Under the pieces are notes generated by a model. It saw only the letters and a list, made by a program, of their open reading frames with translations, searched no databases and had not been told where the DNA came from. Of a stretch of 38,524 bases of DNA, positions 21,379 through 31,371 are shown one piece after another (the stretch's first letter is position 1; every line of letters starts with the position of its first letter). The stretch lies in NCBI GenBank assembly GCA_025464325.1, contig JAODGH010000024.1, forward strand, positions 1 to 38,524, written 5' to 3'. The stretch comes from Methanosarcinales archaeon (GTDB lineage Archaea > Halobacteriota > Syntropharchaeia > Alkanophagales > Methanospirareceae). A program made the translations under genes and the position numbers.

Positions 21379-22095
21379 ATGACGGGGGTAAGTGAAATAG
21401 TCATATTTGGTATATTTACGGGCGTTGTAATCCTTGCCCTAAAAACCAGCCTGGGGTGTGGTCTCACCAATCTCAGGAAGCGAGAGGTAGTCTATGTGGC
21501 TTCTATCTATCTCTGCGCTTCTGTTATACTCAGCCAGTTTGTGGATGTTATACCTCTGGATGTCACGCAGAATGTACTTGCATCAGGACTTACGATGCAC
21601 ATTATCGTGGCTTCGGGATTGATATATTCCGGGATAATCACGAAGAAGGAATGGCTTTCACGCGGTAAGGACATCTCAAGAAAGACATTCCTGTGGCTCT
21701 CTTTACCCTGTCCTGTATGCCTGCTTGCTACTTTTCTCGCCTGTTCCGTCCTGTCGAAGATAATGAGCATCAGCAACCTGGCGATCGGGGTCCTCGTTGG
21801 TATGATATTCTTTGTTATCATCTGTGCATTTTCTCTTACATTCGCTAAAATCGCCGCTTCGATCAATATTAAGAATCCCTCTTCACTGGGCACAGCGATG
21901 ATCATGTTCGGCTTATTCTACTTCCTCTCCATCCTCTTAATCCCAGCATATGTCCAAATTGAGAGTGTTCCCGTTCCAGAATCGACGATCGACACGCGCG
22001 ATACCGGTATTTCGTTACTGGTTATGGTCTCGCTTATAGGTCTGGGTATCATAATTGATCGTATGAAGAGGCGACGAATGAAGGAGGTGTATTGA
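21379..22095 (+). CDS. DUF2162 family membrane protein, putative transporter
   Basis: 238 residues with six or seven strongly hydrophobic segments (about 5-25, 35-55, 65-85, 100-125, 130-155, 175-195, 215-232) and a basic tail (DRMKRRRMKEVY). The features and position match the archaeal DUF2162 family, described as a predicted transporter and commonly found beside TolQ/ExbB-like, DUF2149 and CobN-like genes. A conserved-looking LPCPVCLLATF segment with two Cys in a membrane helix could bind metal (inference). An AAGGAGGTG ribosome site inside its 3' end serves the next gene 6 bp downstream, so the block is one operon. Confidence 0.8.
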   Translation: MTGVSEIVIFGIFTGVVILALKTSLGCGLTNLRKREVVYVASIYLCASVILSQFVDVIPLDVTQNVLASGLTMHIIVASGLIYSGIITKKEWLSRGKDISRKTFLWLSLPCPVCLLATFLACSVLSKIMSISNLAIGVLVGMIFFVIICAFSLTFAKIAASINIKNPSSLGTAMIMFGLFYFLSILLIPAYVQIESVPVPESTIDTRDTGISLLVMVSLIGLGIIIDRMKRRRMKEVY

Positions 22096-22101
22096 ACTGA
22101 A

Positions 22102-22755
22102 ATGGATTTATATTCTGCCCTGGTTGGTGCAATGTTCATTATCTCAACCGCACTGCGATATCCGGTTATTATGGCACTTCTGATGCTGGTGGCATGGTCA
22201 TTTATCGCCGTGGGTTTGTTCGTATCTGAGTACACCGCGAGGAATCGCGATATAGGCAAATTACGCGCAGGCTGCAGAACCGCAAGAGCGCATATGCGTA
22301 TGCAGGAGTTCGATAAAGCGTGTGATTCTTTGAGAGCGAGTGGTTCAAACGATCTGCTCAAGCAATTTATAAACGAACTATCGGGCTTTATAGGTGCAGA
22401 TCATGGCGATTTTATAACAGAAGCGGAGAAGTTACTTCAGGAATATGAATTGAAGATCACAAAGGAACTGGAGAAGCTGAGGCTGGTTGTTAAGTGGGGT
22501 CCAATGCTCGGACTGATGGGTACGTTAATCCCGTTGGGACCGGCGTTGATGGGTCTCACAGCCGGTAACATACAGCAACTCGCAGAAAATCTTGTGGTAG
22601 CATTCAGTACAACCGTGCTCGGGCTGTTCAGTGGCGGTATAGCGTATGCACTTCTGATTGTGAAGAAGAGATGGTACACACAGGATTTAAGTGATATGGA
22701 GTACATAGTGGAGGTATTGAGCAGTAGAAATGCGAAGAAGGAGACTGATACTTGA
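22102..22755 (+). CDS. MotA/TolQ/ExbB proton-channel family protein
   Basis: 217 residues. One N-terminal helix (about 8-36), a long cytoplasmic helical region (about 40-125), and two C-terminal membrane segments carrying the family signature (VVKWGPMLGLMGTLIPLGPA and VVAFSTTVLGLFSGGIAYAL). In bacteria such proteins use proton flow with an ExbD/TolR partner to energise TonB-dependent or envelope processes. Here the partner slot is taken by the DUF2149 protein, whose ORF overlaps this one by 26 bp. Good ribosome site AAGGAGGTG at 22081-22089. Confidence 0.9.
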   Translation: MDLYSALVGAMFIISTALRYPVIMALLMLVAWSFIAVGLFVSEYTARNRDIGKLRAGCRTARAHMRMQEFDKACDSLRASGSNDLLKQFINELSGFIGADHGDFITEAEKLLQEYELKITKELEKLRLVVKWGPMLGLMGTLIPLGPALMGLTAGNIQQLAENLVVAFSTTVLGLFSGGIAYALLIVKKRWYTQDLSDMEYIVEVLSSRNAKKETDT

Positions 22756-23065
22756 TGATGAGGAAGATCCGCTGAGCGGTGTGGCGAATCTTTTTGATGC
22801 GGCGATGGTATTCGCAGTTGCTCTCCTCGTTGCACTGGTGATGTCAGCGAGTGTGCCTGAGCTGCTGAATCCAAAAGCAAACCTGACCGTGGTTAAGAAC
22901 CCCGGACAGGACAACATGCAGGTGATCATCAAAAAAGGGCAGGAGATAAAGGTGCTGAATATGACGGAGGAGGTAGCTTCCGGTCAGGGCAGGAGATTGG
23001 GTACAGCATACCGGCTGGCAACCGGCGAGGTGATTTACGTGCCGGATAACGAAAGTGGTCTATAA
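22730..23065 (+). CDS. DUF2149 family protein, ExbD/TolR-like partner
   Basis: 111 residues: a short basic, acidic N-terminus (RRRRLILDDEEDPLSGVANLFD), one transmembrane helix (about 24-44, AAMVFAVALLVALVMS) and an extracytoplasmic domain of about 65 residues. This topology and size mimic ExbD/TolR, although sequence similarity to them is not obvious by eye; the match is to archaeal DUF2149. An Asp at the start of the helix (LFDAAMVF) could be the proton-carrying residue, as in ExbD (inference). It overlaps the TolQ-like gene and precedes the CobN-like gene. Confidence 0.78.
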   Translation: MRRRRLILDDEEDPLSGVANLFDAAMVFAVALLVALVMSASVPELLNPKANLTVVKNPGQDNMQVIIKKGQEIKVLNMTEEVASGQGRRLGTAYRLATGEVIYVPDNESGL

Positions 23066-23112
23066 CAGCCATTTGGGTTACAACTATTAGTTCCAAAATA
23101 AAAATAGAAAAG

Positions 23113-23121
23113 CTTATATAG
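23113..23121 (+). promoter_or_regulatory. Possible TATA box for the CobN-like gene
   Basis: CTTATATAG lies about 35-43 nt before the preferred ATG at 23156. It could give the giant CobN-like gene its own promoter in addition to read-through from the upstream three genes. Confidence 0.4.
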
Positions 23122-23155
23122 TGCGTCTCATACATTGCCATACGGGTTGGTTGAA

Positions 23156-26100
23156 ATGCGATGCAAAATATACTACTTCAGAAACATACATGTACCGTTG
23201 ATACTGATATCGCTGTTATTACTGTTTACAATGCCGCTGGTTGTTACTCCGGTGGATGCGGGGTTTAATAAGTCGTCCAACAATACAGCCAATACAGCTT
23301 ACAGGCTGGTGTTCGTGCTTGGAACGGCGGAGAATTTAGCAGCTCTTGAAAATGCTGCTATGGATGCCACGTTGAACGCAACGGTAAAAGTTGTGTTATA
23401 TAACGCGAGTGAAGCGAGGTTACATGATTTCAGTAATGCAAGCTTTGTGTTCCTGGCTTCTCTTGATAATGCCACCGTTGAATGCGTAAATCAGACGTTA
23501 AACGCGAGTGCGTATGTTTTTGCATACAATCTCACGCCAGATATAAGCATCGGGAATGTGGATGATGAGAATATTACGGAATACTGGGTCTATGGCGGCG
23601 ATGAAAACATAAGGGATATGATCCTGTATATATGTAGCAGATTTTACGGTACGAAAACGGACTTTGAATCGCCGAAACCACCTGCAGGAAGACCAAAGGT
23701 GGCGTTTGTTGTGTCTGAGAAGAGTTCATATGCGGCATGGCTCAAAAAGGCGGCAGATGATGTGTATATCTCTCGTTGTCTCAATGTTTCTATCTTTACA
23801 TATAGCGTTGATGATCCATCAAGCTACAGTGGTATGGATTTGAGCGATCAGGATGTGATCTTCCTATGGATGATAGGTTTTCCGGTTCAGGATGCTATTC
23901 ACGAGACGGTGCTTAATGCCAGGGCAAGAGGTGCAAGCGTGATTACGACCAGCTTTACCGATGTTTACAATATGTCGTCCGTAAATCTATCCTCTCCTGA
24001 GTTTGCTGATATCTCGGCATACTGGTCCAACGGAGGCACGGAGAACATGAGGCGGGTGCTCCTGTTCATGGGTGTCAAACTATGTGATGTTCCGATAGAG
24101 GCGTTTGGTCTCGAGAAGGTGCCACCACCCGTAGAAATACCTCAGTTTGGTATATACCATCCAGAAGCAAAGAAGGCGGGTGTCGGCATCGATGGACTCG
24201 GGATATTCGCGTCGGTAGATGATTATCTTGCATGGTATAAAGGGAGTGGTAGATACAACGCGAGTGCACCGACCGTGGGCATCCACTACTATTACTCCTC
24301 CGGCAAGTACGGCTCATATATGACGCTCGATCCACTCATAAGGATGATCGAGAATAAAGGAGCAAATGTGATATTTGCCAGTTTCTCATACAAAGATGCA
24401 AACACTACCGAATATCTCCTAAAAGATAACGAATCGCTTGTTGATTCCCTTATCATAATTAATTCGTTCAGGCTGTGGTATCACTCGGAGAATGCTGGCA
24501 TCGACTACTTGCAACAGATCAACGTGACACCGCTGAAAGGAATAATCAGCTATTACATGAACGAAACGGTGTGGAACGAGAGTAATGGGCTATCTCCTTC
24601 TGAGCTTGCATGGCAGATCGCACTTCCTGAGCTTGATGGAGAGACGGAATTCATCCTGTTTTCTGGAAAGGAGAAGGATCCCGTGAGCGGTGAGTACTAC
24701 TATAAACCGTTCACCTCTCAGCTTGAATGGATCACAGATAGAGCGATATCGTGGGCAAAACTTCATGATAAGGCAAATTCGGATAAGAAAGTCGCGATCA
24801 TATACTACAATCACGGTGGAGGGAAAGACAATATCGGTGCGAGTTACCTGGATATGGCACCAAGTATAGCTAATCTGCTTGACAACATGAGTGCAGAGGG
24901 ATACGATGTAGGTAACAGGGCACCGCCCGGCGGCACAGAACTGATCCAGCTTATGCTAAGACAGGGTCGAAACATTGGTACATGGGCACCGGGAGAACTC
25001 ACGAGCATGGTGGAGAACGGGACCGTAATTTTGATTCCTGCGGGTAAGTATGAGAAATGGTTCAACGAACTTCCAGCGGCAAAACGTCAGGAGGTGATTG
25101 ATAAGTGGGGTAATCCCCCCGGCAAAATTATGGTCTATGAGAATGCAAGTGGTAAGTACATTGTGATACCGGGTTTGAAATTCGGAAAGGTGTTCTTAGC
25201 GCCGCAACCCACACGCGGATACTTACAGGATCAGAAGGTGTTATACCATGACCGGGAACTCCCACCGCACCATCAGTATATTGCATTCTACCTATGGCTT
25301 AGAAAGGAGTTTGGTGCAGATGCGATTGTCCATTTTGGAACGCATGGCACGCAGGAATGGCTGCCTGGAAAAGAGACGGCATTATCAGTGCGAGATTGCT
25401 GGCCTGCGATACTGATACAGGACCTCCCAGTGGTTTATCCCTACATTATGGATAATGTGGGTGAAGGAACGCAGGCGAAACGCAGAGGCAATGCGGTCAT
25501 CGTTGACCACCTGACACCGGCTCTTGTGCCTTCAGGGCTTTATGGCGATTTCTGGAATTTATCGGAAGCAGAGATGGGGTACGAGTCCGCAACTGACCAA
25601 CTATTGAAGAACGAATACTGGAATTCAACTCTTAATTATGTTATGGACATCGGTCTTGACCGAGAATTCAATCTAAATATGGACCAGCTGAGGACGAACA
25701 GAACAGCATTTGAGGCTTTCCTGAAGAACGTTCTGGATCCATATCTTGAGGATCTGGAGAACGAGATTATACCCTATGGACTGCACATACTCGGTGAGTC
25801 CCCGGCAGACGAAGAGCTGGTAGAGATGTTAGCGGTAATGCTGGGTGATGAATTTATGGAGCATGTTAAGGCGGTATCTCCAACCGATTATAAGAATAAA
25901 TCAATGGAACTGTTGAATGCGACGATACTGGGGGGCATTAATGTTACAGATGCCGAGAATCAGATACTTGGACCCGGGAATGGGTCTGCAAATATAACGG
26001 CATATCTGAATACCGCTATCAAATATGCAAATGACATACGAGCGTGTAATATTGAGATACCGCGGATACTGGCGGGGCTAAGTGGCAGGTATGTACCACC

Positions 26101-27772
26101 GAAAGTCGGTGGCGATCCGATAAGACACCCTGATGCACTCCCGACCGGTAACAACTTCTATTCTTTTGACCCGCGGATGATACCAACAGAAGAGGCATGG
26201 ACTGTAGGACGAGCCATGGGTGATGAATTGCTGAGGCAATACAAAGAAGAACATAACGGGACGTATCCGCACAGGGTAGGTTTCGTGCTATGGGCAGTAG
26301 AGACAATGCGACATTGGGGCGTTATGGAATCGGAGATACTATACCTGATGGGAGTGAAGCCGAAATGGGATTCGAAGGGGCGTGTTAAGGGTGTTGAGTT
26401 ACTAAGTACTTCTGATTTTGCACTTGATGGCGAAGTCCGCCCTCGCATTGATATACTGGTTACAGCATCGGGACTATACCGCGATACATTTCCAGATAAG
26501 ATAAAACTCATTGATGAGGCGGTACGACTTGCATATACCGCAAATGATACAGGCACTCAGAACTACATAAGGATCGATTCTGATGCGATATACACGAATC
26601 TGAGAGCTACCGGCGATTACACGGATACGGAAGCGAGGAGACTGTCACAGGCGAGGATTTTTTCTGAAGCACCCGGTAACTATGGTACAGGTCTTCCGGA
26701 TGTAATAGCAGCAAGCAATACCTGGACGAATGAGCAGAAACTGGCAGAGTTGTACATCAATCGTGTGGGGTTCGTGTATGGTAAGGATGAATGGGGTCAG
26801 CAGAATACGGCACTCTTCAGACAGAATCTCGAAACCGTGGATGCTGCGGTACATAGTGAGACCTCAAACATCTACGGCGTGATGGACAATGATGACTATT
26901 TCCAGTATCTGGGAGGACTGGCACTTGCAGTGAGAAATGTACGGAAGGACCAAAATACTCCAGATTTGTATATAACCAATCTCAGGGGCGCGTATCATCC
27001 AGAGACAGAGACACTGGAGAGTTTCTTAAGAAGGGAGTTTTATGCACGTTACATCAATCCAAAATGGATTGAAGGAATGATGGAGCATGGCTATTCAGGA
27101 GCGAGGGAGATAGACCACGAGTTCATAGAGAACTTCTGGGGGTGGCAGGTAACAATGCCAGATATGATCACGCAGGATATGTGGAACAAAGTCTATGAAG
27201 TCTATGTCCGGGACAAATACAATCTTGGTCTGAATGATTTTTTCGACAAAAACAATCCATTCGCACAACAAGCCATCGTCGCGAGAATGCTTGAAGCCAT
27301 TCGTAAAGATTACTGGAAACCTTCAGATGACGTAAAGACCACTCTGGCAGAAATATATCATGAATCGGTGGAGAAAAAAGGTGTAACATGCTGCCATCAC
27401 ACATGTGGCAATCCACTACTGGCAGAGTATATGCAAGGCATACTTTCTGCTTCCATTTCCGAAGAGTCATCGACACTTCCCAGAGCCATAGGCGGTGGTG
27501 GAGGAGCTCGCCATATCGAAACGGAGGAAGAAATGGGTGGGGGTGCCACAAATGTGACAGAAACCACCGGTGTGAGTAAAACAGGTGAAGAATTGAAGAA
27601 ACCACCGGAAACGACCGAGCAAAGGGGGCGAGTAATGAAAGAGGAAACGCCAGTAGAAAAGCCGTCGCCGGTATTACCTATATCGGGAGCGCCATTGATG
27701 GGTATAGTAATAGTGATAGTGTTTTTGGTGCTGATCGGAATTGGATTGGGCTATAAGCGTAAGCGACTGTGA
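23156..27772 (+). CDS. cobN: Secreted, membrane-anchored CobN/BchH-like chelatase subunit
   Basis: About 1538 residues from ATG 23156; an in-frame TTG at 23135 is less likely. The N-terminus is a signal peptide (RCKIYYF, then a hydrophobic run to about residue 35). The C-terminus has a Pro/Thr/Glu-rich linker, one membrane helix (about 1508-1532) and a KRKRL stop-transfer tail, so the body should lie outside the cell. CobN/BchH signatures include HFGTHGTQEWLPGKETALS near 726 and TCCHHTCGNP near 1415. CobN inserts cobalt into corrin rings in aerobes, using CobS/CobT ATPases that are absent here. With TolQ- and ExbD-like neighbours this paralog more likely captures metal or tetrapyrrole at the surface. 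The function is inferred. Confidence 0.87.
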   Translation: MRCKIYYFRNIHVPLILISLLLLFTMPLVVTPVDAGFNKSSNNTANTAYRLVFVLGTAENLAALENAAMDATLNATVKVVLYNASEARLHDFSNASFVFLASLDNATVECVNQTLNASAYVFAYNLTPDISIGNVDDENITEYWVYGGDENIRDMILYICSRFYGTKTDFESPKPPAGRPKVAFVVSEKSSYAAWLKKAADDVYISRCLNVSIFTYSVDDPSSYSGMDLSDQDVIFLWMIGFPVQDAIHETVLNARARGASVITTSFTDVYNMSSVNLSSPEFADISAYWSNGGTENMRRVLLFMGVKLCDVPIEAFGLEKVPPPVEIPQFGIYHPEAKKAGVGIDGLGIFASVDDYLAWYKGSGRYNASAPTVGIHYYYSSGKYGSYMTLDPLIRMIENKGANVIFASFSYKDANTTEYLLKDNESLVDSLIIINSFRLWYHSENAGIDYLQQINVTPLKGIISYYMNETVWNESNGLSPSELAWQIALPELDGETEFILFSGKEKDPVSGEYYYKPFTSQLEWITDRAISWAKLHDKANSDKKVAIIYYNHGGGKDNIGASYLDMAPSIANLLDNMSAEGYDVGNRAPPGGTELIQLMLRQGRNIGTWAPGELTSMVENGTVILIPAGKYEKWFNELPAAKRQEVIDKWGNPPGKIMVYENASGKYIVIPGLKFGKVFLAPQPTRGYLQDQKVLYHDRELPPHHQYIAFYLWLRKEFGADAIVHFGTHGTQEWLPGKETALSVRDCWPAILIQDLPVVYPYIMDNVGEGTQAKRRGNAVIVDHLTPALVPSGLYGDFWNLSEAEMGYESATDQLLKNEYWNSTLNYVMDIGLDREFNLNMDQLRTNRTAFEAFLKNVLDPYLEDLENEIIPYGLHILGESPADEELVEMLAVMLGDEFMEHVKAVSPTDYKNKSMELLNATILGGINVTDAENQILGPGNGSANITAYLNTAIKYANDIRACNIEIPRILAGLSGRYVPPKVGGDPIRHPDALPTGNNFYSFDPRMIPTEEAWTVGRAMGDELLRQYKEEHNGTYPHRVGFVLWAVETMRHWGVMESEILYLMGVKPKWDSKGRVKGVELLSTSDFALDGEVRPRIDILVTASGLYRDTFPDKIKLIDEAVRLAYTANDTGTQNYIRIDSDAIYTNLRATGDYTDTEARRLSQARIFSEAPGNYGTGLPDVIAASNTWTNEQKLAELYINRVGFVYGKDEWGQQNTALFRQNLETVDAAVHSETSNIYGVMDNDDYFQYLGGLALAVRNVRKDQNTPDLYITNLRGAYHPETETLESFLRREFYARYINPKWIEGMMEHGYSGAREIDHEFIENFWGWQVTMPDMITQDMWNKVYEVYVRDKYNLGLNDFFDKNNPFAQQAIVARMLEAIRKDYWKPSDDVKTTLAEIYHESVEKKGVTCCHHTCGNPLLAEYMQGILSASISEESSTLPRAIGGGGGARHIETEEEMGGGATNVTETTGVSKTGEELKKPPETTEQRGRVMKEETPVEKPSPVLPISGAPLMGIVIVIVFLVLIGIGLGYKRKRL

Positions 27773-27832
27773 ATGATAGATACATACATACATTATACAT
27801 ACATAAATAAAGACCAAATCTTACATATGCAC

Positions 27833-28411
27833 ATGAACGAATGGCGCAGTTATAAATCGCCGGGAATACCGGACGACCAGTTTGTCAGGTCGAAAGCGGG
27901 CTTGACGCGTGCCGAGATTCGTTCAATCATCATATCAAAAGCGCAAATAACGGGTAACGAGCGTGTACTTGATGTCGGTACGGGCTCGGGCAGCGTATCC
28001 ATCGAGTTCGCACGGTTGGGCTGCGAAGTCACTGCGGTCGAGAAGGACAGGGATAATTTCGAGATCGCAAGAACGAATATAGAACGATTCGGGTTGGACG
28101 GAAAGATAGAGCTCGTATTTGGTGAGCTGGAGAACGTTGTTCTAAACGGTAGTTTCGATGTCGTATTCTTCGGTGGCACCGATAATCTGGCTAAAGCATT
28201 TGAGAATGCATTTGCTCATTTAAAGCATGGAGGCAGGATCATCATCGCTGCAGTACGGTTAGAGACCGTGGTGGAAGCGATAAACGTATTTAAGAGCCGT
28301 GGTATCGATCGAGAGATTCTGAACATATGCCTGAACCGGGGTAAAGACCTGGGAGGGAAGACCGCGCTTGCACCTTCGTATCCCGTATTTCTTATTTATG
28401 GTGAGAAATGA
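27833..28411 (+). CDS. cbiT: Cobalt-precorrin-6B C15-methyltransferase (decarboxylating)
   Basis: 192 residues from the ATG at 27833, where the family N-terminus begins (MNEWRSYKSPGIPDDQFVRS); the open frame extends to 27773. Class I SAM methyltransferase with motif I VLDVGTGSGSVSIEFA and the acidic ribose-binding VTAVEKD. CbiT methylates C15 and decarboxylates the C12 acetate side chain in anaerobic cobalamin synthesis. Its stop overlaps the start of cbiL by 4 bp (ATGA), showing a coupled operon. CbiE, its usual partner, is not in the window. Confidence 0.93.
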   Translation: MNEWRSYKSPGIPDDQFVRSKAGLTRAEIRSIIISKAQITGNERVLDVGTGSGSVSIEFARLGCEVTAVEKDRDNFEIARTNIERFGLDGKIELVFGELENVVLNGSFDVVFFGGTDNLAKAFENAFAHLKHGGRIIIAAVRLETVVEAINVFKSRGIDREILNICLNRGKDLGGKTALAPSYPVFLIYGEK

Positions 28412-29130
28412 AGCTGTATGGAATAGGAGTAGGACCTGGCGATCCCGAATTGCTTACCCTCAGGGCATACCGTATTCTGAAAGAGGTTGATCTGATAGTT
28501 GCTCCCCGGTCACGAGTGGGCAGGAAGAGCCGGGCGTTGCTTATCGTTGAGCAATATATAAAAGAACGAGCGGCAAACCGGCGACCCACAATCGTCGAGC
28601 CGGTATTCCCGATGACGAGGAACCGGGCAGAACTCGAGTTGTACTGGCATAAAGCGAAAGATGCTGTACTTAAGAGCATGGATGACATGCGAGCCGACGG
28701 AAAAGAGTGTGAAACGTTTGCGTTTATTACTCTGGGCGATCCAAGCCTTTACTCCACATTCTACCGATTCCTGGATATATTTAGAGATTACGTGGATGAG
28801 GTAGAAGTGATCCCGGGCGTGACCTCCTTCTCCGCCTGTTCTGCTACCGCCCGGATTCCGGTTGTCGAGGGTTATGAGGTTGTTTCGGTCGTTCCTGAAG
28901 TGAACGATAGAACGATAGAGCTGATAGACAGATCCGATTCGGTGATATTACTCAAACCAAAGAATATGGAGCGTATAAAAGAACGAATAGGAGATCGAGA
29001 AGCGTTAATGTGTGTTAAAATAGGATTCAATGATCAGGAGCTGGTGATGGGCAATCTGAACGAGATCGAGGTCCCGGATCCTTATCTCGTTACGCTTATC
29101 ATTAAGAAAGGAGTGAGAAATAGAGTATGA
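28408..29130 (+). CDS. cbiL: Cobalt-factor II C20-methyltransferase
   Basis: 240 residues. Tetrapyrrole methylase fold with the GxGxGDPELLT signature at the N-terminus (YGIGVGPGDPELLTLRA), the LGDPSLYSTF motif near 111-120 and VIPGVTSFSACSA near 137-149. CbiL adds the C20 methyl group that is later lost on ring contraction. It overlaps cbiT upstream and cbiF downstream by 4 bp each. Length is normal for the family. Confidence 0.93.
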   Translation: MKLYGIGVGPGDPELLTLRAYRILKEVDLIVAPRSRVGRKSRALLIVEQYIKERAANRRPTIVEPVFPMTRNRAELELYWHKAKDAVLKSMDDMRADGKECETFAFITLGDPSLYSTFYRFLDIFRDYVDEVEVIPGVTSFSACSATARIPVVEGYEVVSVVPEVNDRTIELIDRSDSVILLKPKNMERIKERIGDREALMCVKIGFNDQELVMGNLNEIEVPDPYLVTLIIKKGVRNRV

Positions 29131-30305
29131 AACCGAAAGTGGTTTTTGCGGGTGCGGGACCTGGCGATCCCGAATTGCTGACACTACGGGCTCGAAGAGA
29201 GATTGAGGATGCGGATGTTATTGTATATGCGGGCTCACTCATCAATCGAGCGGTCCTGGACTATGCGAAGGATGAAGCAGTACTGATAGATAGCCATGGC
29301 AAGACCAGAGAGGAACTCATTGCGATCTTTGAGCGGTACGTGAACGCGGGCAAGAAGGTTGTTCGGTTACATTCGGGCGATTTGAGTTTCTATTCCGCAA
29401 TACAGGAGCAGATGGCGCTTTTAGATTCGAAAAGAATCGAATACGAGCTTGTGCCGGGTGTATCCTCGTTATCTGCAGCTTCTGTATCTCTTAAGAGAGA
29501 ACTCACATCTCCCGGTGTATCGCAGACGTTGATAATAACGAAACCATCTGGTAAGACCGGCAAACCGGGTGGAGAGCGTATAGCGGAACTGGCAAGGCAC
29601 GGTGCCACGATGGTTATCTTTCTCGGCGTGCATCTCATAGATGAAATCGTGTCAGAACTGCTTGTGGGCTATCCGACAGATACGCCCGTTGCGGTAGTGC
29701 ATAAAGCGTCATGGCGCGAAGAGCGAATAATAGAAGGCACTCTGGCAGATATAGCCGGAAAGGTTAAGACAGCGGGCTTTTCGGGGCATTCATTGATAAT
29801 AGTGGGTGACGTGCTCAGGCATACGGGTGTTTCGGTCCTGTATTCGGGCACCAGGGATGATGTTACGGTCAAACGTAGAGATAAAAGAGGGATAGCCATC
29901 TTCTCACTTGCACAGAAATCGGTTACAATTGCGGAACGGGTAAGAAACCTGCTCTTAGATCGGGGCTACGATGTGAAATGGGTCTGCCCGGTAGAGATTT
30001 CATGTGACAGTGCGGATGAGCGTGTTGAAAGCATATACAGAGCCATACGGGATAGTTTCCGCGAGCATTATAATATTATCGCTATTCTGCCGATGGGCAT
30101 TTTAGTGCGAGCGATAGAGCCGGTGAAAAAGACCGAGGACCCGTGGGTGGTTTGTATAGAAGAGAATGGCAGATGGGTCATACCCGTGTTGAACGGGCAT
30201 AGGGGTGCTAACGAGTTTGCACAGATGATTGCAGAAGCGCTATCAGCAGAGGCGGTGATAACAACATCAGAGCGGGACACTTCCTCCTCTACTATCATTC
30301 AATAA
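29127..30305 (+). CDS. cbiF: CbiF-CbiG fusion (C11-methyltransferase + CbiG N-terminal part)
   Basis: 392 residues in two parts. Residues 1 to about 245 are CbiF (cobalt-precorrin-4 C11-methyltransferase): FAGAGPGDPELLTLRARR, VYAGSLIN, RLHSGDLSFYSA and VPGVSSLSAASVSL. From about 252 (RGIAIFSLAQKSVTIAERVR) the sequence is CbiG-like, including AILPMGILVRAIEPVKKTEDP, then VIPVLNGHRGANEFA and AVITTSERD. CbiG opens the ring lactone and releases acetaldehyde. Only the CbiG N-terminal region is present, ending soon after the VITT motif. The CbiG C-terminal domain must be elsewhere or dispensable. It overlaps cbiL by 4 bp. Confidence 0.9.
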   Translation: MKPKVVFAGAGPGDPELLTLRARREIEDADVIVYAGSLINRAVLDYAKDEAVLIDSHGKTREELIAIFERYVNAGKKVVRLHSGDLSFYSAIQEQMALLDSKRIEYELVPGVSSLSAASVSLKRELTSPGVSQTLIITKPSGKTGKPGGERIAELARHGATMVIFLGVHLIDEIVSELLVGYPTDTPVAVVHKASWREERIIEGTLADIAGKVKTAGFSGHSLIIVGDVLRHTGVSVLYSGTRDDVTVKRRDKRGIAIFSLAQKSVTIAERVRNLLLDRGYDVKWVCPVEISCDSADERVESIYRAIRDSFREHYNIIAILPMGILVRAIEPVKKTEDPWVVCIEENGRWVIPVLNGHRGANEFAQMIAEALSAEAVITTSERDTSSSTIIQ

Positions 30306-30339: not shown

Positions 30340-31371
30340 ATGAACCCGCGACAGCACGTGCAGAGTTTAGAGCCATGTGAACATGGAGGTGGCTTTGTAT
30401 ACAGCATAAGGGACTTCAGTGTGAATTTGAACCCGTATGGACCTCCCGCGTTCGTATTCGATGTACTTAAAGCGAGTGTAAAGGAGATAGGGCGTTATCC
30501 TGATACAGAATGCACAGCGTTGAAGGTGCAGATAGCGCGTAAGTTCGACTGTCTGGACTCGGAGATACTTGTAGCCGCGGGAGTTACCGAACTCATACAG
30601 CTCATTGCCATTGGGTTCGTGAAGACACGTGCGGTCATACCAGCACACACATACGGTGAATACGAGAGAGCGGTCAGAATCGTGGGTGCAGAAGTGAAGA
30701 GGATAGAAATGCCGCGCCTGGAAATAGCACCTGAGCATATACTGAACGATATGCGCCCGGGTGATGTTATATTCCTGTGCAATCCCAACAATCCGACGGG
30801 TATCTACCTGGGTGAGGAGGATTTAGTGGCACTCATCGAGGAAGCGGAACGGGTCGATGCATTACTTGTGCTGGATGAAGCGTATGTGGATTTCGTAAAT
30901 AACCCGTTTGCTTCTCATTCCTGTCTCCATTCCACAACTAATTTGCTCATACTGCGATCGCTCACCAAATCATTTGCCATACCCGGCGTGAGGATTGGCT
31001 ATGCACTCGGTTCGGAACCTGTTATAAGCGTGTTACAGAGCTTAAAAGCGCCGTGGAGTGTAAGTGTATTCGCACAGCGAGTGGGGGCGGCTGTGTTGAG
31101 TACTGCGGGTGACGAGTTCCTTAATGCCACAAGAGCGAAGATATCGCGCAGTAAGATGCGAATAGAACACGAGCTGGGTATCCATTCAGACACAAACTTC
31201 TATATTCTCGATGTTGGTCGTGCGGCAAGCGAAGTGAGTGCCAGATTACTGCGTAACGGTATCGCGGTACGGGACTGCACCTCATTCGGATTACCAACCC
31301 ACATACGCTTCTCGGTTCAGAGGGACGACGATAACGAAATACTCATTCACCAGCTCAAGGAATTGCTCTGA
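30340..31371 (+). CDS. cobD: Threonine-phosphate decarboxylase / aminotransferase-fold PLP enzyme
   Basis: 343 residues, fold-type I PLP enzyme. The N-terminus HGGGFVYSIRDFSVNLNPYGPP is the CobD-type start; histidinol-phosphate aminotransferase (HisC) is the near relative and main alternative. PLP contacts are seen in CNPNNPTGIY, LDEAYVDF and SLTKSFAIPGVRIGYA (the Lys of LTKS forms the Schiff base), and HIRFSVQ closes the substrate pocket. CobD makes (R)-1-amino-2-propanol phosphate for the cobalamin lower loop, consistent with the preceding cbi genes. The 3' end overlaps the convergent FAD oxidoreductase gene by 25 bp. Confidence 0.85.
   Translation: MNPRQHVQSLEPCEHGGGFVYSIRDFSVNLNPYGPPAFVFDVLKASVKEIGRYPDTECTALKVQIARKFDCLDSEILVAAGVTELIQLIAIGFVKTRAVIPAHTYGEYERAVRIVGAEVKRIEMPRLEIAPEHILNDMRPGDVIFLCNPNNPTGIYLGEEDLVALIEEAERVDALLVLDEAYVDFVNNPFASHSCLHSTTNLLILRSLTKSFAIPGVRIGYALGSEPVISVLQSLKAPWSVSVFAQRVGAAVLSTAGDEFLNATRAKISRSKMRIEHELGIHSDTNFYILDVGRAASEVSARLLRNGIAVRDCTSFGLPTHIRFSVQRDDDNEILIHQLKELL

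Follow-up and report, generated by a model that had tools for sequence, protein, structure and literature searches.

An anchored CobN/HmuS-like protein with a TolQ-DUF2149 stator in ANME-1 archaea: a possible proton-powered extracellular chelatase

Background

In Bacteroidota, the hmuYRSTUV operon (PMC12583661, PMC13227078, PMC6460266) combines an anchored CobN-like protein, HmuS, with an adjacent TolQ protein (HmuU) and a DUF2149 protein (HmuV). HmuS, whose structure was solved by cryo-electron microscopy, is a proven heme de-chelatase that acts outside the cytoplasm; its removal of iron from heme was shown in 2025, and His538 is required for heme turnover (PMC12583661). The published scheme has HmuU and HmuV power the outer-membrane receptor, and HmuT, HmuU and HmuV are without an assigned job; archaeal homologs are called unexplained and not associated with cob genes (PMC12583661). 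Here we describe one such archaeal cluster, DUF2162-TolQ-DUF2149-CobN, from a 38,524-bp stretch of DNA (contig C44, hereafter the window) belonging to a Methanophagales (ANME-1) genome of 1.42 Mb and 94% completeness.

Two other described clusters are close to it. That of Trichlorobacter (Geobacter) lovleyi pGLOV01/pSZ77, described as cobN-exbB-exbD-tonB, has the order DUF2162-TolQ-DUF2149-CobN and sits between cobalamin gene clusters in a genome without CobST (PMC3403914). It differs from the window in having flanking TonB receptors, an extra ExbB-ExbD-TonB set and tandem cobalamin riboswitches upstream. P. aeruginosa PA1922-PA1925 also brings together a CobN-like protein, a proton-channel protein and DUF2149, but it belongs to the Zur (zinc-starvation) regulon, includes a TonB receptor and has no DUF2162 listed (PMC9431628). 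The chelatase body is homologous to those of CobNST and ChlHID as well; theirs are soluble, cytoplasmic and driven by an AAA+ ATPase, whereas the body described here is predicted to be extracytoplasmic, is accompanied by a proton stator and falls in a separate clade.

The archaeal module corresponds to the inner-membrane half of hmuSTUV in Bacteroidota. The original prediction for this locus, made from the sequence alone, regarded the mechanism as undescribed, and this does not hold: the same set is known from hmuSTUV, and the HmuS de-chelatase has been characterised (PMC12583661). We read the module as an archaeal HmuS-type system, i.e., an extracellular (de)chelatase, powered by protons, that would act on cobalt- or nickel-tetrapyrroles and feed metal importers, and put the probability of this reading at roughly one half.

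The module and its conservation

The four genes of the module are as follows:

21379..22095, + strand: DUF2162 protein, 238 amino acids, polytopic membrane protein, candidate metal permease (PF09930, 184 bits)
22102..22755, + strand: TolQ/ExbB/MotA-type proton-channel subunit, 217 amino acids (PF01618 MotA_ExbB, 40.8 bits)
22730..23065, + strand: DUF2149 protein, 111 amino acids, single-pass with N-in/C-out topology, second stator subunit (PF09919, 121 bits)
23135..27772, + strand: anchored extracytoplasmic CobN/HmuS-like chelatase (predicted), 1545 amino acids (PF02514, 1171 bits, residues 295-1399)

These are the four open reading frames that the original prediction had named, and both coordinates and Pfam profiles confirm them, with spacings of +6, -26 and +69 bp. 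Its gene extents need amending in two respects: the CobN-like gene likely starts at the in-frame ATG at 23156 (1538 amino acids) rather than the TTG at 23135, and the operon continues into cbi genes that had not been included.

The association recurs widely. Of 197 sampled genomes of the phylum, 64 have DUF2149 and 55 have DUF2162 scoring above its cut-off; these are mostly the same genomes, with the two genes adjoining. We collected 80 loci from named genomes, 49 of which extend for at least 2.5 kb to either side of DUF2149. Among these 49, the adjacent genes include TolQ in 48 and DUF2162 in 41, and CobN lies within 3 kb in 37, so the association is not due to chance. Bacterial occurrences are found in Bacteroidota hmu operons, Trichlorobacter, Runella and Azospirillum.

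Cellular location and independence from the ATPase motor

The CobN-like protein has an N-terminal signal-type helix and, by hydropathy, a C-terminal helix (anchor at about residues 1521-1540) followed by KRKRL, and these features recur in homologs. Its body contains 33 N-x-S/T sequons, compared with 9.8 expected from shuffled sequences (z 8.5), while the soluble CobN paralog of the same genome has 2 where 3.6 are expected and thus no enrichment. Because of the signal peptide, the anchor and a sequon excess that the soluble paralog does not share, the body is predicted to lie outside the membrane, as had been proposed. Enrichment varies among anchored archaeal homologs (z 0.8 to 12), and bacterial HmuS is not enriched.

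The soluble paralog (L036:7644-11342, on contig G000:C11) has a peculiarity of its own: 17 cysteines, with odd runs such as DLCGCCCYF within the chelatase body.

The CobN family annotation would fit an ordinary cytoplasmic cobaltochelatase that has been mispredicted as exported, a view to which we give almost no credence. We reject it on the sequon counts and membrane anchors, since signal peptide, anchor and sequon enrichment are found in archaeal homologs as well as in the window protein; in addition, the soluble proteins form a separate clade and some genomes have no CobS/T. Specifically, 16/62 genomes with DUF2149 and CobN have no CobS/T-ChlI/D-type ATPase (13 of these 16 are at least 98% complete), compared with 3/58 CobN genomes without DUF2149 (Fisher p = 0.002, with absence defined at E 1e-40, tallies made by hand from tables and genomes that are not independent). 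Since anchored CobN is present in genomes without the CobS/T motor, the normal class-I ATPase motor is dispensable for it, in agreement with the independence claimed originally.

Kinship with HmuS

The best match of the CobN-like protein in the PDB is the HmuS heme de-chelatase (9d26, E 1.7e-151). In a maximum-likelihood tree, the anchored proteins (HmuS, Trichlorobacter, Runella, Pseudoalteromonas, Azospirillum and archaea) form one clade apart from soluble CobN, BchH and the paralog from the same genome (support 100/99), and HmuS is sister to all remaining anchored forms (99/99); as the program flagged, branches in this tree are long and its composition is uneven.

The HmuS catalytic His538 is retained, in HFGTHG at residue 733, and is thus shared with HmuS along with the anchored body and the two adjacent stator genes. 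Other parts of the cavity differ. The HmuS heme ligands Met79 and His254 are not conserved (the Met is one column off, and Ser-Phe-Arg replaces His-Gly-Arg), and the HmuS motif LSLDHxxEFMGG is absent from the archaeal protein, which reads VMDNDDYFQYLGG. HmuS D1208-H1209-xx-E1212 accordingly corresponds to D-D-x-x-Q, within DNDDYFQY at residue 1251, and the cavity motif of the archaeal branch is DNDDxFQY. With the heme ligands missing and D-D-x-x-Q in place of the HmuS motif, the protein is HmuS-like in build, but heme is probably not its substrate.

A further motif, CCHHTC, lies at residues 1419-1424, ahead of the anchor. It is carried by 44/48 C-anchored proteins from the named loci and is absent from soluble CobN; Trichlorobacter has CCDHTC, Runella has CGHTTC and gut HmuS has a degenerate form.

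The stator and the fourth slot

TolQ is a member of the channel family of ExbB-ExbD-TonB, TolQ-TolR and MotAB. It conserves the residues P134, T141, T170/T171 and E124 of that family, and matches to MotA stator structures are weak. Its partner DUF2149 crosses the membrane once and carries an Asp where the helix begins (Asp23, 98% conserved and invariant in A1 and A3). Homology between DUF2149 and ExbD is not detectable in sequence: the profile match extends over no more than 10 columns at the membrane Asp (E 0.48), and a PDB sequence search gave no match. We therefore reject sequence homology to ExbD; the single-pass N-in topology and the Asp at the helix start are all that the two have in common. 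A low-confidence structure model of DUF2149 (predicted local distance difference test, pLDDT, 62) has no Foldseek match. The original idea of a proton channel with an ExbD-like partner thus stands as regards channel residues, topology and Asp, but not as regards detectable homology.

The window system has no TonB or TolA, and neither a TonB gene nor an outer-membrane receptor gene lies beside the cluster; HmuY and HmuR genes are missing there too. Archaeal cells lack an outer membrane, and in Trichlorobacter the operon of identical gene order encodes its own ExbB-ExbD-TonB downstream. For both reasons, we argue that the stator does not serve to energise a TonB receptor.

The fourth slot of the module is more variable. 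DUF2162, which has invariant K22, G26, C27 and P110-C111-P112-x-C114, replaces the HmuT of Bacteroidota, and in Runella the slot is filled by a NicO-type nickel permease (HAFEADH). DUF2162 and HmuT have no detectable homology (the HmuT profile score is not significant), and searching plasmids with the DUF2162 of the window found no match. A DsbD/CcdA-like thiol relay using cysteines of the first and fourth transmembrane helices was also considered and dropped because the Trichlorobacter DUF2162 has no cysteine in the first helix. The AlphaFold model is all-helical (pLDDT 78.8), and we regard DUF2162 as a candidate metal permease.

Cobalt, corrin and nickel context

Downstream of the module, the window operon continues with co-oriented corrin genes:

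27773..28411, + strand: CbiT, cobalt-precorrin-6B C15-methyltransferase, operon context (TIGR02469 above cut-off)
28408..29130, + strand: CbiL, C20-methyltransferase, operon context (TIGR01467 above cut-off)
29127..30305, + strand: CbiF fused to a CbiG N-terminal domain, operon context (TIGR01465 above cut-off, and PF11760)
30340..31371, + strand: CobD/HisC-like pyridoxal phosphate enzyme, possible operon end (best NCBIfam match TIGR01140 CobD, below cut-off)

The spacing is 0 bp from CobN to CbiT and -4 bp at each of the next two junctions (CbiT-CbiL and CbiL-CbiF/G). CbiM(N)Q and/or CbiT/L/F/A/P are contiguous with the cluster in 8/8 ANME-1 loci that retain CobN in it: the window and L084, L086, L089, L116, L125, L128 and L144 (the record of L128 is labelled Methanomicrobiales, and it is placed with Methanophagales on the TolQ tree). 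CbiM also lies beside the cluster in the Methanosarcinales locus L114. The ANME-1 context therefore qualifies the published statement that archaeal members are not cob-associated (PMC12583661).

Bacterial relatives add to this link with cobalt and corrinoids, which the original prediction had suggested. Directly upstream of the Trichlorobacter operon, whose content is TonB-receptor/DUF2162/TolQ/DUF2149/CobN/ExbB-ExbD-TonB, are two tandem cobalamin riboswitches (L077:1024-1490; RF00174, 107 and 65 bits), which the text of the 2012 genome paper nowhere mentions, so the pair was apparently unnoted there (PMC3403914). On an Azospirillum plasmid, a cobalamin riboswitch (L080:7321-7538) lies between CobN-TolQ-DUF2149 and an iron-type ABC importer, TonB receptor and nikR. 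Near those archaeal clusters that were searched, there is no riboswitch or other regulatory RNA. For nickel, the context is hypCDE and the NicO-like permease in Runella and NikR in Azospirillum. Depending on the relative, the neighbouring genes thus concern iron, cobalt, nickel or zinc, which points to a family of metal-scavenging machines.

The same context might instead reflect import of a whole corrinoid or precursor, with the CobN-like protein as receptor and TolQ-DUF2149-DUF2162 as proton-driven translocator, and no removal of metal. The Trichlorobacter riboswitches and TonB receptor, the Azospirillum riboswitch beside an iron-type ABC importer and the cbi operons would all suit this, as would homologs that have lost the catalytic motif and keep the module, which suits a binding role. 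We nevertheless consider import unlikely. No ExbB-type stator is known to carry small molecules across the membrane on its own, the fourth slot is not one conserved permease, and the importers beside the ANME-1 clusters are for metals and not for cobamides. For P. gingivalis, a role of HmuTUV in heme transport across the inner membrane is presumed (PMC13227078), but the characterised HmuS removes the metal, and the freed iron is taken up by FeoAB (PMC12583661, PMC6460266).

A chelatase could also work in the other direction, with cobalt or nickel inserted into a metal-free macrocycle that is scavenged from outside and taken up afterwards. The closest enzymes by name insert metal, and corrin genes follow in the operon. 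However, this genome already has CbiX for early cobalt insertion, plus the soluble CobN paralog and a CobS/T-type ATPase, and the only characterised anchored relative removes metal (PMC12583661), so we rate insertion as very improbable.

Proposed function

For the extracellular (de)chelatase that we favour, four steps can be envisaged. A metallated tetrapyrrole or similar cobalt/nickel chelate would first reach the cavity of the CobN-like protein, at the outer face of the membrane. Proton flow through TolQ-DUF2149 would then power conformational cycling of the CobN-like body, in place of the ATP-burning CobS/T (ChlI/D) motor of the cytoplasmic relatives; that the stator drives the chelatase is something we infer. 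The metal would be removed rather than inserted, being released at the HFGTHG/DNDD site and then captured by CCHHTC beside the anchor. Finally, it would enter the cell through DUF2162 and/or a CbiMNQO importer, and the Cbi enzymes that this operon encodes would use it. CbiMNQO is co-encoded at the loci of several ANME-1 relatives and elsewhere in the genome for the window organism, whose CbiM genes are on contigs C9 and C14.

The choice of substrate is limited by chemistry. Cobalt in a finished corrin is held very tightly and is very hard to remove, which makes intact cobamide a poor candidate and counts against our reading to that extent. Nickel or cobalt porphinoids, remains of F430 or metal-bearing precursors are therefore likelier substrates.

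Several other observations also weigh against this reading. Purified HmuS is active in vitro in the absence of HmuTUV (PMC12583661), so de-chelation by HmuS does not strictly require the stator there. The DUF2162 fold has nothing below E 0.38 in a Foldseek comparison with the PDB and no transporter fold among its matches. Outside ANME-1, the archaeal loci have no cobalt or corrin neighbour, save CbiM in L114 and a weak, distant match in L109. HFGTHG and DNDD are both lost in some Methanoculleus-type homologs (L057, L059, L061; L088, L090, L115), which keep CCHHTC and the operon; these proteins of Methanoculleus and relatives are possible pseudo-chelatases. TolQ-DUF2149 also adjoins a conserved S-layer protein of about 870 amino acids in seven Methanosarcinaceae loci from Methanolobus and relatives (L053:9918-13783, L064, L065, L112, L119, L142 and L160; tested by PF07752 in L053 and by phmmer in the other six). 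In ANME-1 and its class (L037, L039, L048 and L051), TolQ, mostly with DUF2149, lies by giant CARDB, beta-propeller and NosD/beta-helix surface proteins of up to 3038 amino acids.

These last two sets of loci would fit a structural or envelope role for TolQ-DUF2149, e.g., in S-layer strain or the movement of surface proteins, with CobN-like proteins as one of several large surface clients. On the TolQ tree, however, context labels are strongly clustered: the CobN+DUF2162 class changes 12 times, compared with 25.6 in shuffles (0/500 as low), so most stators are long-term CobN partners. Non-CobN stators are confined to few groups, and although the S-layer stators are nested within CobN-linked Methanolobus stators, as the envelope role could accommodate, such nesting is what one would expect if a CobN motor had been re-used. 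The CobN-linked sets of bacteria and archaea also share their content across two domains. We therefore regard a primarily envelope-related role as improbable, more so than import. Since TolQ-DUF2149 pairs apparently also serve S-layer and CARDB proteins, we regard TolQ-DUF2149 as a general archaeal surface motor. The original prediction had counted on TolQ and DUF2149 not acting with unrelated partners, and this holds by half: such partners exist, and the stator is not exclusive to CobN.

The HmuS-U-V core is thus found in cells without an outer membrane and inside ANME-1 cobalt-uptake/corrin operons, which points the motor at the chelatase itself. On this basis, we tentatively propose that TolQ-DUF2149 mechanically powers an extracellular class-I chelatase in place of the CobS/T AAA+ motor, that ANME-1 mines cobalt or nickel from external tetrapyrroles for CbiMNQO and that, by extension, HmuUV of gut Bacteroidota powers HmuS and not the TonB receptor HmuR. 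This wider proposal is possible but more doubtful than the reading on which it builds. If the reading is right, this would be, to our knowledge, the first proton-powered chelatase. If true, the proposal would also explain the role of this motor in bacteria, with the archaeal module as a natural genetic test. Tetrapyrroles in sediments would then be a source of metals for methanogens and methane-oxidising archaea, both of which rely on cofactors that contain cobalt and nickel.

Two minor observations concern the surroundings of the stator genes. The Methanosarcina and Methanolobus neighbours Nop5, fibrillarin and eIF2-gamma are housekeeping genes and give no functional hint. The window genome carries two more DUF2149 genes (L035:8251-9427 and L034:9458-9793), of which one is accompanied by TolQ and lies near CdhD and a gene for a small export protein, while the other has no TolQ.

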